Shown: positions 39,059 through 44,293 of the stretch, piece by piece | Layout of the letters: the number at the start of each line of letters is the position of its first letter | How positions within the stretch are numbered: the first letter of the stretch is position 1 | Assembly (NCBI RefSeq): GCF_900156685.1 | Contig: NZ_FTOJ01000003.1 | Location: 186,001-250,000 of the forward strand | DNA from: Chryseobacterium piscicola | Lineage (GTDB): Bacteria; Bacteroidota; Bacteroidia; Flavobacteriales; Weeksellaceae | Length of the DNA stretch: 64,000 bases | Direction: 5' to 3' | Translations under genes and position numbers: made by a program | Notes under the pieces: model-generated | The model's input: only the letters and a program-made list of their open reading frames with translations | Databases searched by the model: none | Told to the model about the DNA's origin: nothing

Positions 39059-41452
39059 ATGAAAAGAAGAATCAAACACGTTACAGTTTTAGGTTCAGGA
39101 ATCATGGGAAGCGGTATTGCTGCACACTTTGCCAACATAGGCGTGCAGGTTTCTCTTCTAGACATTGTTCCGTTTGAATTGAACGAATCCGAACAGAAAA
39201 AAGGTTTGACCAAAGATGACAAAGCCGTTCGAAACAGAATTGCTTCTGAAAACTTTGAAAAACTGAAAAAATCAAGTCCGGCACTACTCTATTCTCCAAA
39301 ATTTGCGGAGCGTATTAAAGTAGGAAACTTTGATGATGATTTAAAGAAAATAAAAGACACCGACTGGATTATTGAGGTTGTTGTTGAAAGATTGGATATT
39401 AAAAAATCAGTTTATGAAAAAATAGAACAATTCAGAAAACCTGGAACTTTAGTTTCATCTAATACTTCAGGAATCCCCATCAATATGTTGGTGGAAGGAA
39501 GAAGCGATGATTTCAAAAAATACTTTGCAGGAACTCACTTTTTCAATCCCGTAAGATATCTTCCGCTTTTGGAAGTGATACCAACCAAAGAGACTGATCC
39601 AGAAATTGCCGAATTCTACATGAATTATGGTGCTAAATTCTTAGGAAAAACTACGGTTTTAGCTAAAGATACACCTGCGTTTATTGCCAACAGAATTGGA
39701 GTTTTCTCGATGATGGATTTGCTTCACAATGTTCAGAAATTAGGTTTAAATGTTTCTGATGTTGATAAATTAACAGGTCCTGTTATCGGTAGACCAAAAT
39801 CTGCAACCTTCAGAACAGCCGATGTTGTTGGTCTAGATACTTTGGTAATGGTTGCCAATGGCGTTCGTAACAGCGGTGCTGAAGCGAATGATTTCAACAA
39901 TGTTTTCGCTCTTCCTGATTATATTCAGAAAATGGTTGATAACAAATGGTTGGGATCAAAAACTGAACAAGGTTTCTATAAAAAAGTAAAAGCTGCCGAT
40001 GGAAAATCTGAAATTCACGGTTTAAATCTTGATACTTTAGAATACGAACTTCAAGGAAAATCTTCTTTCCCGACTTTAGAATTAACTAAAAATATTGATA
40101 AACCAATTGACAGATTCAAAGTTTTGATTGGTGGAAAAGATAAAGCTGGTGAGCTTTACAGAAAATCTTTGGGAGCATTATTCGCTTACGTTTCTCATAA
40201 AGTTCCTGAAATTTCTGATGAAGTTTACAAAATCGATGATGCGATGAGAGCAGGTTTCGGTTGGGAAAACGGACCTTTCGAAATTTGGGATGCAGTTGGC
40301 GTTCAAAAAGGAATCGAATTGGCGAAAGAAGCCGGTTATGAAGTTTCTGATTGGGTTAAAAATGTAGAATCTTTTTACAAAGTAAATGAAGACGGACAAA
40401 GTATTTTCTTCGATAAAAATTCAGGAAACTATAATAATATTCCGGGGCAAGAATCATTTATTATTTTAGATAATATCAGAAAAAACAAAACGCTTTGGAG
40501 TAATTCAGGTTCTTCCATTGAAGATTTGGGTGATGGAATTATCAATTTCGAGATTCGTTCTAAAATGAATTCTCTTGGAGGTGAAGTTCTCGATGGATTA
40601 AACAGAGCGATTGATTTAGCCGAAAAAGAATATGATGGTTTAGTTATTGGAAATCAAGGTGCAAATTTCTCTGTCGGAGCCAATTTAGCGATGATTTTAA
40701 TGATGGCAATCGAACAAGATTGGGATGATTTGAATATGGCGATTGCGTATTTCCAAAAGTCGATGATGAGAGTTCGTTACTCTTCAATTCCTGTCGTGGT
40801 TGCTCCTCACGGAATGACTCTCGGTGGCGGTTGCGAAATGACAATGCACGCAGACAGAGTGGTTGCAGCAGCAGAAACCTATATAGGATTGGTTGAGACA
40901 GGAGTCGGCGTAATTCCTGGAGGTGGTGGAACGAAAGAATTTGCCTTAAGAACTTCTAGAGAATTCCACAGCGATGATGTGAAAAACAACCGTCTCCGTG
41001 AAGCTTTCATGAACATTGCAATGGGTAAAGTAGCAACTTCAGCCTACGAAGCTTACGACATGGGAATTCTGGAAAAAGGAAAAGATGTTGTTGTAGTTGA
41101 TAAAAAACGTCAGATTATGACCGCAAAAATGATGGCTAAAAGTTTGGCAGAGCATGGTTACACACAACCAATCGAACAAACCGTAAAAGTTCTCGGAAAA
41201 GATGCGCTCGGCATGTTCTATGTGGGAACTGATCAGATGTTAACAGGGAATTTCATTTCTAAACACGATAAATTAATTGCTGATAAATTAGCCAATGTTT
41301 TGGTAGGCGGAAATCTTTCTGAACCAACCGTTGTGACCGAACAATATTTATTAAATCTTGAAAGAGAAACATTCCTTCAGCTTTGTGGTGAAAGAAAAAC
41401 TTTGGAAAGAATCCAGTTTATGTTACAGAAAGGAAAACCGTTGAGAAATTAA
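39059..41452 (+). CDS. 3-hydroxyacyl-CoA dehydrogenase/enoyl-CoA hydratase fusion (FadB/FadJ-like)
   Basis: A bifunctional beta-oxidation enzyme of 797 residues. The domain order is reversed relative to E. coli FadB: the NAD-binding dehydrogenase comes first (VLGSGIMGSGIAAHF, 10-24), with FFNPVRYLPLLEVIPT and DTPAFIANRIGVF. The enoyl-CoA hydratase/crotonase part is C-terminal (GANFSVGANL, HGMTLGGGCEMTMHADRVVA, ETGVGVIPGGGGT). This arrangement is usual in Bacteroidota. Its stop lies 6 bp before the first REP-like hairpin, so any cluster-long mRNA must pass through the repeat array to reach the thiolase gene. Confidence 0.94.
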   Translation: MKRRIKHVTVLGSGIMGSGIAAHFANIGVQVSLLDIVPFELNESEQKKGLTKDDKAVRNRIASENFEKLKKSSPALLYSPKFAERIKVGNFDDDLKKIKDTDWIIEVVVERLDIKKSVYEKIEQFRKPGTLVSSNTSGIPINMLVEGRSDDFKKYFAGTHFFNPVRYLPLLEVIPTKETDPEIAEFYMNYGAKFLGKTTVLAKDTPAFIANRIGVFSMMDLLHNVQKLGLNVSDVDKLTGPVIGRPKSATFRTADVVGLDTLVMVANGVRNSGAEANDFNNVFALPDYIQKMVDNKWLGSKTEQGFYKKVKAADGKSEIHGLNLDTLEYELQGKSSFPTLELTKNIDKPIDRFKVLIGGKDKAGELYRKSLGALFAYVSHKVPEISDEVYKIDDAMRAGFGWENGPFEIWDAVGVQKGIELAKEAGYEVSDWVKNVESFYKVNEDGQSIFFDKNSGNYNNIPGQESFIILDNIRKNKTLWSNSGSSIEDLGDGIINFEIRSKMNSLGGEVLDGLNRAIDLAEKEYDGLVIGNQGANFSVGANLAMILMMAIEQDWDDLNMAIAYFQKSMMRVRYSSIPVVVAPHGMTLGGGCEMTMHADRVVAAAETYIGLVETGVGVIPGGGGTKEFALRTSREFHSDDVKNNRLREAFMNIAMGKVATSAYEAYDMGILEKGKDVVVVDKKRQIMTAKMMAKSLAEHGYTQPIEQTVKVLGKDALGMFYVGTDQMLTGNFISKHDKLIADKLANVLVGGNLSEPTVVTEQYLLNLERETFLQLCGERKTLERIQFMLQKGKPLRN

Positions 41453-41457
41453 GCGAA

Positions 41458-41994
41458 GCTCCGTAGGAGCGACCTGTTAATAGCAGAATGATTTGGAAAT
41501 CACAATCAAGCCTCCTAGAGGCGACCTGTTAATAGAATTATATGCGGATTTTTAATCCAGCTCCATAGGAGCGACCTGTTAATAGCAGAATGATTAGGAA
41601 ATCACAATCAAGCCTCCTAGAGGCGACCTGTTAATAGAATGTTGAATCAATTTTAATTTTAGCTCCATAGGAGCGACCTGTTAATAGCAGAATGATTTGG
41701 AAATCACAATCAAGCCTCCTAGAGGCGACCTGTTAATAGAATGTTGAACCAATTTTAATTTTAGCTCCGTAGGAGCGACCTGTTAATAGCAGAATGATTT
41801 GGAAATCACAATCAAGCCTCCTAGAGGCGACCTGTTAATAGAATGTTGAACCAATTTTAATTTTAGCTCCGTAGGAGCGACCTGTTAATAGCAGAATGAT
41901 TAAAGATTTCTTATCCAAAGCCTCGTAGAGGCGATCTGTTAATAGAATTAGATGCGAATTTTTAATCTAGCTCCGTAGGAGCGACCTGTTAATG
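41458..41994 (+). repeat. Array of 11 alternating REP-like hairpin repeats
   Basis: Two hairpin types alternate in the same orientation. Type A has the stem GCTCC-(G/A)TA-GGAGC and starts at 41458, 41560, 41662, 41764, 41866 and 41970. Type B has the stem GCCTC-(C/G)TA-GAGGC and starts at 41510, 41612, 41714, 41816 and 41920. Each is followed by the conserved tail GACCTGTTAATAG (one copy GATCTG..., the last copy shortened). A repeats every 102 bp (104 for the last), and B follows A by 50-54 bp. The A-to-B spacers are nearly identical (CAGAATGATTTGGAAATCAC); the B-to-A spacers vary slightly. The two stems differ by compensated base pairs, which supports real hairpins. This is not a CRISPR, since the spacers repeat. 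Confidence 0.92.
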
Positions 41995-42026
41995 AATGAT
42001 TTACCAATGTTTAATTTTAAATATTA

Positions 42027-42497
42027 ATGATGGCAAACACTTATACACAAATTTATATTCAAATTGTTTTCGCTGTAAAAGGAAGACAAAACCTGATTTC
42101 AAAAGAAAACAGAGAAGAATTACATAAATTCATTACAGGAATTGTTTCTAACAGAGGTCAGAAATTATTTGCAGTTTTTGCGATGCCCGATCACGTTCAT
42201 ATCCTTGTAAGTATAAATCCTAATATTTCGATTTCAGATTTAGTTAGAGATATTAAAGCAGGTTCTTCAAAATTTATTAATGATAAAAAATGGATGACCG
42301 AAAAATTCAATTGGCAGGAAGGATATGGAGCTTTCTCTTATTCTAAAAGCAATGTTGATTTGGTTGTGAAATATATTTTAAATCAGGAAGAACATCATAA
42401 GAACAAATCATTTAAAAATGAATATTTGGAATTTTTAGAAAAATTTGAAATTGAATATGATTCAAAATATTTATTTGAATGGATTGAAAATAATTAA
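42027..42497 (+). mobile_element. IS200/RAYT-type Y1 transposase gene
   Basis: A single-domain HUH-superfamily transposase of 156 residues (155 if the second Met at 42030 is used). The HUH motif is PDHVHILVS (H56, H58) and the catalytic tyrosine is Y116 in VVKYILNQEEHHK. No TnpB-like partner is present. It lies between the direct REP-like array and inverted copies of both repeat types, the usual layout for REP-associated tyrosine transposases that maintain such repeats. It could instead be a plain IS200 element next to unrelated repeats. Its stop overlaps the tail of the inverted A copy, which argues that gene and repeats belong together. Confidence 0.85.
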
Positions 42498-42564
42498 CAG
42501 ACCGCTCCTACGGAGCTCCGCAAAACACAAACAAATTGCTATTAACAGTTTGCCTCTGCGAGGC
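42494..42564 (-). repeat. Inverted A and B REP-like hairpins closing the cassette
   Basis: Read on the minus strand, the same two elements occur once each: stem A (42504-42516) with tail GGTCTGTTAA reaching 42494, and stem B (42552-42564) with loop GCA and tail CTGTTAATAG. Their orientation is opposite to the array at 41458-41994, so the transposase gene is bracketed by inverted repeats. The thiolase ATG follows 30 bp later. Confidence 0.85.
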
Positions 42565-42593: not shown

Positions 42594-43775
42594 ATGTCAA
42601 AACAAGCATACATCATAAAAGGATTCCGAACTGCCGTTGGAAAAGCTCCAAAAGGTAGTTTGAGATTTACAAGACCCGACGTAATGGCAGCAACCGTCAT
42701 CGAAAAACTCATGGCAGCCGTTCCGCAGCTAGACAAAAACAGAATCGACGATTTAATTGTAGGTAACGCAATGCCGGAAGCTGAACAAGGCTTAAATGTG
42801 GCGCGTTTAATTTCTTTGATGGGATTACAAACCGACAAAGTTCCGGGAGTAACTGTGAATAGATATTGCGCTTCTGGAAGTGAAGCGATTGCCATTGCTT
42901 CGGCAAAAATACAGGCAGGAATGGCCGACTGCATCATCGCAGGTGGTACAGAATCTATGTCTTACATTCCGATGGGTGGTTACAAACCAGTTCCCGAAAC
43001 AGAAATCGCAAAATCAAATCCTGATTATTATTGGGGAATGGGTTATACTGCGGAAGAAGTTGCGAAACAATTTAATATTTCAAGAGAAGAACAAGATCAG
43101 TTTGCTTTTGAATCTCATCAAAAAGCTTTAAAAGCAAATCAGGAAGGAAAATTTGCCAATCAAATCGTATCAATTCCTGTAGAATATAATTTCTTGGATG
43201 AAAACCAGAAAATGCAGACTAAAAAGTTTGATTTTTCTGTAGATGAAGGCCCAAGATTAGACACATCTTTGGAAGGTTTAGCTAAATTAAAGCCCGTTTT
43301 TGCAAACGGAGGAAGCGTAACCGCAGGAAATTCTTCTCAAATGAGTGACGGTGCAGCTTTCGTGATCGTGATGTCTGAAGAAATGGTAAAAGAATTAGGA
43401 TTGGAGCCTGAAGCAAGATTGGTTGCTTATGCTGCAGCGGGACTTGAGCCAAGAATCATGGGAATGGGACCAATTTATGCAATTCCAAAAGCTTTAAAAC
43501 AGGCAGGTTTAGAATTGAAAGATATTGAATTGATTGAATTAAATGAAGCTTTCGCTTCTCAATCGGTTGCTATCAAAAAAGAATTAGGTTTAAATCCTGA
43601 TATTCTGAATGTAAACGGTGGTGCAATCGCTCTTGGCCATCCACTTGGTTGTACCGGAACGAAATTGACCGTTCAACTCCTTGACGAAATGAGAAAACGC
43701 GGAAATAAATACGGAATGGTTTCGATGTGCGTGGGAACTGGACAGGGAGCAGCTTCAATCTTTGAACTTCTATAG
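42594..43775 (+). CDS. Acetyl-CoA C-acyltransferase (3-ketoacyl-CoA thiolase, FadA-like)
   Basis: A thiolase of 393 residues that cleaves 3-ketoacyl-CoA in the last beta-oxidation step. The active sites are C92 in NRYCASGSEA, the His in ALGHPLGCTG and the second Cys in MCVGTGQG. Other thiolase signatures are ELNEAFASQS and VNGGAIALGHP. It belongs functionally with the dehydrogenase/hydratase gene upstream and the acyl-CoA dehydrogenase downstream, but the REP/transposase cassette separates it from the former and the four-helix-bundle cassette from the latter. Its leader contains the inverted hairpins, which may affect its translation or mRNA stability. Confidence 0.95.
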   Translation: MSKQAYIIKGFRTAVGKAPKGSLRFTRPDVMAATVIEKLMAAVPQLDKNRIDDLIVGNAMPEAEQGLNVARLISLMGLQTDKVPGVTVNRYCASGSEAIAIASAKIQAGMADCIIAGGTESMSYIPMGGYKPVPETEIAKSNPDYYWGMGYTAEEVAKQFNISREEQDQFAFESHQKALKANQEGKFANQIVSIPVEYNFLDENQKMQTKKFDFSVDEGPRLDTSLEGLAKLKPVFANGGSVTAGNSSQMSDGAAFVIVMSEEMVKELGLEPEARLVAYAAAGLEPRIMGMGPIYAIPKALKQAGLELKDIELIELNEAFASQSVAIKKELGLNPDILNVNGGAIALGHPLGCTGTKLTVQLLDEMRKRGNKYGMVSMCVGTGQGAASIFELL

Positions 43776-43782
43776 ACAATGA

Positions 43783-43807
43783 GATAATAGACAGATAGAT
43801 AATAGAT
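43783..43807 (+). repeat. Left 25-bp inverted repeat of the four-helix-bundle cassette
   Basis: Begins GATAATAGACAGATAGAT. It matches the reverse complement of 44233-44257 at 23 of 25 positions and lies just after the thiolase stop. Its last 15 bases (AGATAGATAATAGAT) recur directly at 44206-44220. Confidence 0.7.
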
Positions 43808-43824
43808 AATAAAGCACACAAGAA

Positions 43825-44193: not shown

Positions 44194-44205
44194 AAGAATA
44201 TAGAA

Positions 44206-44257
44206 AGATAGATAATAGATTAGCCTATCAAAATCTATCATCTATTTGTCTATTATC
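44206..44257 (-). repeat. Right inverted repeat of the four-helix-bundle cassette, with local hairpin
   Basis: 44233-44257 is the reverse complement of 43783-43807 with two mismatches. A direct copy of AGATAGATAATAGAT at 44206-44220 precedes it, so the right end alone can also fold as a hairpin and may act as a terminator or mRNA barrier. Confidence 0.7.
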
Positions 44258-44293
44258 TATCCGTCTTAAACAAAAAATAAAAAAATAAATAAT

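Follow-up and report, generated by a model that had tools for sequence, protein, structure and literature searches.

Genes for RAYT transposases are flanked by inverted copies of REPs, which are abundant and usually exceed 100 per genome, as described by Nunvar 2010 (PMC2817692), and class 2 enzymes are described as cutting at CT (Corneloup 2021, PMC8266576). In Pseudomonas fluorescens SBW25 the dispersed unit, the REPIN, is an inverted doublet (Bertels and Rainey 2011, PMC3116915). In Quentin et al. 2018 (PMC6006769), on the other hand, TnpAY1 subclass 1.2 has the entry 'no' for REP in Table 1 and is described in the text as generally lacking the typical terminal structures of IS200. Our literature search, which had partial coverage, found no paper linking subclass 1.2 genes to REPs.

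The window studied here, a 64-kb stretch of Chryseobacterium piscicola DNA, contains a locus that shares features with each of these systems. As in REP-RAYT systems and REPtrons as described in PMC2817692 and PMC8266576, an HUH Y1 gene is flanked by inverted palindromic repeats, relatives of which occur elsewhere in the genome. Unlike in the REP-RAYT systems described there, the protein is of class 1 rather than class 2 type, the tag is an RTAG 9 nt 3′ of the hairpin rather than a GT[AG]G at its 5′ foot, and there are two hairpins per side and few copies; of the RAYT hallmarks, the inverted flanking repeats are present, whereas Y---NP, the 5′ GT[AG]G and a copy number above 100 are not. Ordered tandem clusters, some of them adjoining the transposase gene, recall the SBW25 REPINs as presented in PMC3116915, but the symmetrical dispersed form here has four hairpins in the order <in <out out> in> and reaches tens of copies at most. 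With subclass 1.2 as characterized in PMC6006769 the locus has in common the motifs Y---Q--HH, WQ and DH[IV]H, a length of ~150 aa, low copy number and occurrence in Bacteroidetes; unlike subclass 1.2 as tabulated there, tnpA is framed by hairpin repeats. The Y1 fold and catalytic motifs are those of IS200/IS605 elements such as IS608 and ISDra2, but TnpB is unmatched (PF07282), there is no pair of same-sense ends, and instead of several near-identical mobile copies there is one close copy, inherited with its neighbours. To judge from its sequence, the locus is built like a REP-RAYT unit, with a transposase of another class and a differently made repeat. We think that it is probably a REPtron-like unit, i.e. 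a domesticated, vertically inherited HUH nuclease acting on single-stranded DNA and framed by cognate hairpin repeats.

Organization of the locus in the window

The features of the locus are listed below in window coordinates.

39059-41452, + strand: gene for a FadB-like 3-hydroxyacyl-CoA dehydrogenase / enoyl-CoA hydratase, upstream neighbour of tnpA (family searches)
41458-41995, + strand: tandem array of 11 hairpins, alternately A and B, with a 13-nt tail after each one
41458-41483, + strand: first array unit, A hairpin GCTCCGTAGGAGC and tail GACCTGTTAATAG, that is, hairpin-N9-ATAG
41510-41535, + strand: first B unit, GCCTCCTAGAGGC and tail GACCTGTTAATAG
41970-41995, + strand: final unit of the array, an A hairpin whose tail is the variant GACCTGTTAATGA, occupying the inner-hairpin position adjoining tnpA (comparison with orthologs)
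42027-42497, + strand (second ATG at 42030): tnpA, Y1/HUH nuclease of the TnpAY1 subclass 1.2 type
42493-42516, - strand: inverted inner hairpin A with its tail (hairpin itself 42504-42516)
42539-42564, - strand: outer hairpin B in inverted orientation, its minus-strand tail reading AAACTGTTAATAG (hairpin itself 42552-42564)
42594-43775, + strand: gene for acetyl-CoA C-acyltransferase (thiolase), downstream neighbour of tnpA (family searches)

An earlier note on this DNA had described eleven alternating hairpins with a shared tail next to a Y1 transposase gene, and one inverted copy of each hairpin type beyond that gene; both descriptions hold at the coordinates above. The A hairpin, GCTCC[G/A]TAGGAGC, is present in six copies in the array (41458, 41560, 41662, 41764, 41866 and 41970) and the B hairpin, GCCTC[C/G]TAGAGGC, in five (41510, 41612, 41714, 41816 and 41920), in strict alternation and with a step of ~102 bp per A+B pair. 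Nine of the 11 are followed by the exact tail, the tenth tail being GATCTGTTAATAG and the last the variant already listed. Since GACCTGTTAATAG occurs nine times on the plus strand of the 64 kb, never on the minus strand and nowhere outside the array, the array is not a product of chance. Folded as single-stranded DNA, the first A+B unit is more stable than its dinucleotide shuffles (z -2.67; 4/200 shuffles as stable). Downstream, the tail of the inverted A hairpin overlaps the tnpA stop codon (42495-42497).

The setting between two β-oxidation genes was likewise confirmed, as was the lack of a TnpB partner, in that PF07282, the TnpB zinc-ribbon family and the sole TnpB model searched, had no match in the C. 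piscicola genome. The tnpA ORF itself matches PF01797 (family search, 95 bits). It lies on the same strand as fadB and the thiolase gene, which makes its transcription within a metabolic mRNA plausible. In the following gap, between the thiolase and acyl-CoA dehydrogenase genes, the window carries an ORF of the S23 / 23S rRNA intervening-sequence type (PF05635, 43825-44193), with imperfect inverted repeats in its flanks at 43776-43824 and 44194-44293.

Class and predicted fold of the transposase

Numbered from the ATG at 42030, TnpA has an HuH motif at H55/H57, a catalytic tyrosine Y115 followed by Q119 and HH122-123, and WQ95-96, i.e. the motif Y---Q--HH and not Y---NP. Its score with the IS200 NCBIfam model is above threshold (75 bits, cut-off 55), and that with the RAYT (REP-associated) model NF047646 is below it (38 bits, cut-off 80). 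Membership of the RAYT family was therefore rejected, on that score and on the absence of Y---NP. The REP-RAYT architecture proposed in the earlier note thus survives in the layout (inverted hairpins around the gene, related repeats elsewhere), whereas the RAYT identity of the protein, with its 38 bits and its Y---Q--HH, does not.

The motifs of subclass 1.2 (Y---Q--HH, WQ and HuH) and a length of ~148-155 aa are found in the window protein and its relatives, so that, as judged by motifs and length, it appears to fit TnpAY1 subclass 1.2. Y---NP, the class 2 mark, was found in none of 150 proteins (0/46 orthologs from the fad position, 0/25 from other loci of the genus, 0/79 from named genomes), these being the loci with at least 125 aa open (46/47, 25/27 and 79/80, respectively). 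The stricter form Y--NQ--HH is present in 43/46, 24/25 and 70/79 of them, and 11 of the 13 exceptions differ at the N alone. Subclass 1.2 relatives were also seen, among the best 80 of 570, in MAG records of Ignavibacteria, Planctomycetota, Chloroflexi, Cloacimonadota and Poribacteria, and in Desulfonema magnum. The C. piscicola genome has eight Y1 matches. It also has Y1 proteins (L036 and L037) that carry Y---NP (YVHQNP and YIHLNP) and are of the class 2 type.

An AlphaFold2 model of the window TnpA was confident (pLDDT 91.3), and all 30 Foldseek matches to it at E <=0.001 are Y1 transposases, with ISDra2 and IS608 chains ranked first and the E. coli RAYT-REP complex 4er8 last. By rmsd the order differs, 4er8 lying at 4.0 and the other 29 chains at 4.9-12.9, for a monomer model that cannot decide between a cis and a trans tyrosine. 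The catalytic residues of this predicted HUH Y1 fold are intact.

A kept gene between fadB and thiolase

A close tnpA ortholog is present in 47 of 118 genomes of the genus, at 79-90% identity (orthologs being defined as at least 79% identical in the match table, with a degraded copy in G042 scored as absent). In the 30 loci first fetched, fadB precedes and the thiolase gene follows tnpA in every case, and both neighbours are within reach at 45 of the 47 loci. Side by side, those 30 loci show a usual layout of fadB, A> B>, tnpA, <A <B, thiolase, a few having one hairpin, and in an alignment of 11 loci the stems, loops and tails are near invariant and the linkers variable. The window locus has 12 matches to the repeat pattern, and none of the other 46 orthologous loci has more than four; by this comparison the 11-hairpin array is most simply read as a local expansion of the conserved frame out> in> tnpA <in <out. 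Of the lineage-specificity that the earlier note had assigned to the repeats, the tandem expansion is thus the part that is local; the A/B frame, as described below, is not.

Median dN/dS of tnpA is 0.084, indicating purifying selection (43 orthologs; 846 of 903 pairs, those with pS <0.7). Over 45 loci, its divergence is correlated with that of fadB at a Mantel r of 0.754 and with that of thiolase at 0.635, values comparable to the 0.679 between the two neighbours themselves. Purifying selection and divergence in step with the neighbours argue that tnpA is a domesticated, vertically inherited gene and no active IS. An active IS was rejected as a candidate on those two grounds and on its single close copy. 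A related proposal is that of an ordinary IS200/IS605 insertion sequence that has lost TnpB and is decaying in place. It would account for the pass with the IS200 model, for IS200/IS605 TnpA proteins being the nearest folds and for the unmatched PF07282, but it sits badly with a dN/dS of 0.084, with each genome having a single close copy in the same operon position and with inverted pairs of hairpins in place of a single hairpin per end, and we regard it as very unlikely.

The gap between fadB and thiolase was also read in 30 hand-picked genomes out of the 71 without an ortholog. Seventeen have an S23-like ORF there (L115, L116, L118, L121, L124, L126-L128, L130, L131, L135, L136, L138, L139 and L141-L143), two gaps are 29-30 bp only, some hold REP-like hairpins alone, and one (G042, L137) contains the degraded tnpA. 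The S23 ORFs in this gap have inverted flanks as well, scoring 22-44 versus 12-23 when one side is shuffled, and the same operon gaps are thus used by two unrelated small ORFs, tnpA and the S23-like one, both flanked by repeats.

Three Flavobacterium relatives (L191-L193) also lie between fadB and thiolase; the proteins are 80-81% identical and the flanking genes 68-70%. In the protein tree they fall, together with Epilithonimonas L190, in an unresolved fork that is sister to the clade of the fad slot; L190 itself lies between an oppositely oriented short-chain dehydrogenase gene and a gene for an M16 peptidase. The Flavobacterium genes may be old vertical copies or later arrivals.

Hairpins facing related genes

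In Flavobacterium and Epilithonimonas the relatives have a symmetrical frame, with A inside and B outside on either side of the gene, from which A can be taken as the inner and B as the outer type. A frame of two hairpins per side also surrounds relatives in Chitinophagaceae and in other phyla. The A/B alternation that had been proposed as a trait of this lineage is therefore rejected as such, because the same inner/outer frame is found in other genera. Within the genus, 23 further loci place subclass 1.2 genes between other neighbours, the majority having a private hairpin family on both sides. Neighbours were named first from the translated sequence, and family searches at five loci agree: carA and carB (L043), a MoxR-like AAA_3 gene (L152), and a histidine kinase and a response regulator (L184), and, with partial genes scoring under the cut-off, purL (L158) and a trans-aconitate-type methyltransferase gene (L153). 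Two separate tnpA clades with different tails (L145-L148 and L149-L152) apparently occupy the same gap before the MoxR-like gene in different species.

Counted per 160-nt flank, upstream and downstream, hairpins number 1.81 and 1.02 at the 47 fad orthologs (0.11 in shuffled flanks, 0.12 at a distance of 700 nt), 1.22 and 1.89 at the 27 other loci of the genus (0.17 and 0.38) and 1.62 and 1.77 at 77 loci from named genomes (0.14 and 0.28), i.e. at densities ~7 to 16 times those of the shuffled flanks and 3 to 15 times those at the 700-nt distance. They occur on both sides of the gene at 44/47, 21/27 and 59/77 loci, respectively, and the inverted match between the upstream and downstream flanks exceeds that of 95% of mismatched locus pairs at 32/47, 19/26 and 39/77. 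(For the named genomes, 77 of 80 loci entered both counts, short flanks having been dropped for the density; the inverted match used 26 of the 27 other genus loci.) Distant control windows are largely coding, and for that reason poorer in hairpins, so that comparing the two directions is the fairer control. An RTAG 5-18 nt 3′ of a hairpin points toward the gene rather than away in 48 versus 0 cases at the fad loci, 28 versus 10 at the other loci of the genus and 92 versus 24 in the named genomes (69 of the 80 loci, near relatives of the window being excluded).

The same directional design is evident in 57 representatives sharing <75% identity, drawn from 149 proteins of at least 140 aa. Hairpin-N7-10-RTAG aimed at the gene occurs on either side at 43 of them and on both sides at 20, compared with 3/104 windows 600 nt away, and an RTAG at exactly position 10 follows 52 of 211 hairpins toward the gene and 9 of 227 away from it. 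The hairpins have a spacing peak at 48-55 nt and 59 different stem arms. The repeat design is a GC-rich hairpin with an RTAG ~9 nt on. At 14 of the 57 representatives the signature is absent on both sides, and in the looser tests (flank hairpins, inverted match) 27/77 to 38/77 loci fail one or the other; the frame is general but not universal, being found at most loci, not all. The flanking hairpins contradict the REP 'no' that Table 1 of PMC6006769 gives for subclass 1.2.

This directionality also bears on the idea that the repeats are RNA stem-loops in the fad mRNA, setting stability or translation between the cistrons, with tnpA as a passenger or as a gene itself under such control. That all genes are on one strand, that in most orthologs inspected only a few nt separate the inner tail from the tnpA start and the downstream tail overlaps the stop codon, and that by eye hairpins persist in the slot without tnpA (L117, L120, L122 and L123) would all suit it. 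But the signature is inverted across the gene, its tails pointing inward on opposite strands, and a role in mRNA would need none of that; moreover, where subclass 1.2 genes lie in unrelated gene pairs, they have like frames made of other hairpin families. We consider an explanation by RNA structure unlikely, and keep to that of a nuclease gene with cognate repeats.

Repeats elsewhere in the genome

The repeats are not confined to the locus, the tail pattern having 48 matches across the C. piscicola genome as against five for a reversed control. Included among these matches is a second tandem array at G000:C6:367988-368769 (L001, L047), with 16 A-type hairpins in 51-bp steps; no Y1 gene was seen in the stretch inspected there, and its linkers look able to form small stem-loops that differ from one another. 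Another frequent intergenic repeat of the genus, ~100 bp long, reads GGGCAGC...TCCGTCTTCCACTCCCGCTTTTTTG...AAAAAGAGCTCCGTTCAAGCCGGGCTGC; it is found in many of L275-L293 and at the edge of the C6 array (L001). A search of the same genome with the repeat of the paralog L035 gave three matches, two of them at the L035 locus, so that not every hairpin family is dispersed.

The suggestion that copy number would track the transposase fits in part. Outside the locus, the median number of copies is 4 in the 47 genomes with an ortholog versus 1 in the 71 without, a comparison that ignores shared ancestry and in which copies in the slot stay in the count for the 71; the reversed pattern gives ~0.86 matches per genome. 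With one pattern and up to three mismatches, the 47 genomes range from 0 to 31 copies outside the locus. At least five repeats occur in 16 of the 71 genomes without an ortholog, and at most one outside the locus in 7 of the 47 with one. G026 has 15 matches without an ortholog. The earlier note had named, as evidence against its reading, repeats that abound where no homologous transposase ever was, and this is partly the case: G074 has 39 matches, in clusters, without an ortholog, and some copies have MITE-like carriers. Repeats elsewhere track tnpA loosely.

These carriers were recognized by eye: of eight dispersed elements examined in the C. piscicola genome, at least four sit in a MITE-like repeat ending in TTGTCCGATAAAA. 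At L040, L041, L045 and one element in L046 the order is <in <out out> in>, with whole or partial inverted ends of the TTGTCCGATAAAA type. The MITE-like repeat with TTGTCCGATAAAA-like ends carries four hairpins inside, and a similar end lies beside the L101 element in another genome. Such ends suggest that a different transposase may have spread the dispersed elements, and TnpA is not claimed as the spreader of all copies. It might even be that two unrelated things are being seen together, the repeats having been spread as MITEs by a DDE transposase and by recombination, and the Y1 gene adjoining them by chance, which the MITE-like ends of several dispersed elements and the repeat-rich G074 without an ortholog would favor. 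Chance, however, does not readily place hairpins on both sides of 44 of 47 orthologs, nor the signature beside 43 of 57 divergent representatives, among whose flanking hairpins 59 different stem arms occur. We hold that coincidence to be very unlikely and retain the reading of the repeats as cognate to the gene.

Changes in hairpin number can be followed in the gap between a transporter gene and a xylanase gene, which was inspected in 30 of 57 xylanase-bearing genomes. L268 has a single hairpin there, L265 and L266 have two each and L270 has three, the shared right flank beginning right after TTAATAG. Because the linker of the third L270 unit is a different one, that unit is no plain duplication. 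At other loci the same gap has irregular or other repeats in some cases and an 8-nt gap in four, and the last tail of L273 is TTAATAA.

Possible mechanism and significance

In the mechanism that we propose for the REPtron-like unit, TnpA would bind the hairpin and its tail in single-stranded DNA, the most likely source of which would be the lagging-strand template at replication. It would cut the tail at its RTAG end or close to it and rejoin the ends, such that hairpin units of ~50 nt would be added, lost or, rarely, moved; the one, two and three hairpins of the transporter-xylanase gap support change by whole units. The window array would have arisen recently as the left pair expanded in tandem, whether through recombination, through slippage or through TnpA itself, and since its repeats are nearly identical, recombination or slippage suffices there. 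IS608 uses same-sense left and right ends. Here, the hairpins of the two sides face each other and hence lie on opposite strands, leaving no same-sense left and right ends on either strand, as would suit a gene that remains in place while the repeats around it turn over. The complement of RTAG is CTAY, and by analogy its CT recalls the cut site of class 2 enzymes, which we take as a lead only.

It is a serious possibility, falling a little short of a probable one, that REPtrons arose a second time, or exist in an unrecognized sister form, on the IS200 branch. Subclass 1.2 across Bacteroidota and several further phyla would then keep private families of repeats (hairpin-N9-RTAG, with the tag on the far side and two per side), many of its genes being fixed cistrons in housekeeping pairs such as fadB-thiolase and carA-carB, before purL or before a MoxR-like gene.

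What is new here, as far as the sequences and the published table go, is the presence of hairpin repeats around a class of transposase tabulated as without REP. REP-RAYT systems rank with the best examples of a bacterial transposase that has become a retained host gene. If subclass 1.2 has cognate repeats, of the reverse construction, it would provide a second system, varying separately from the first, for asking which features recognition, cutting and retention need, and its fixed place in metabolic operons would make a physiological role testable. If true, the proposal would also supply a candidate cause for some of the unexplained hairpin repeats in Bacteroidota genomes.
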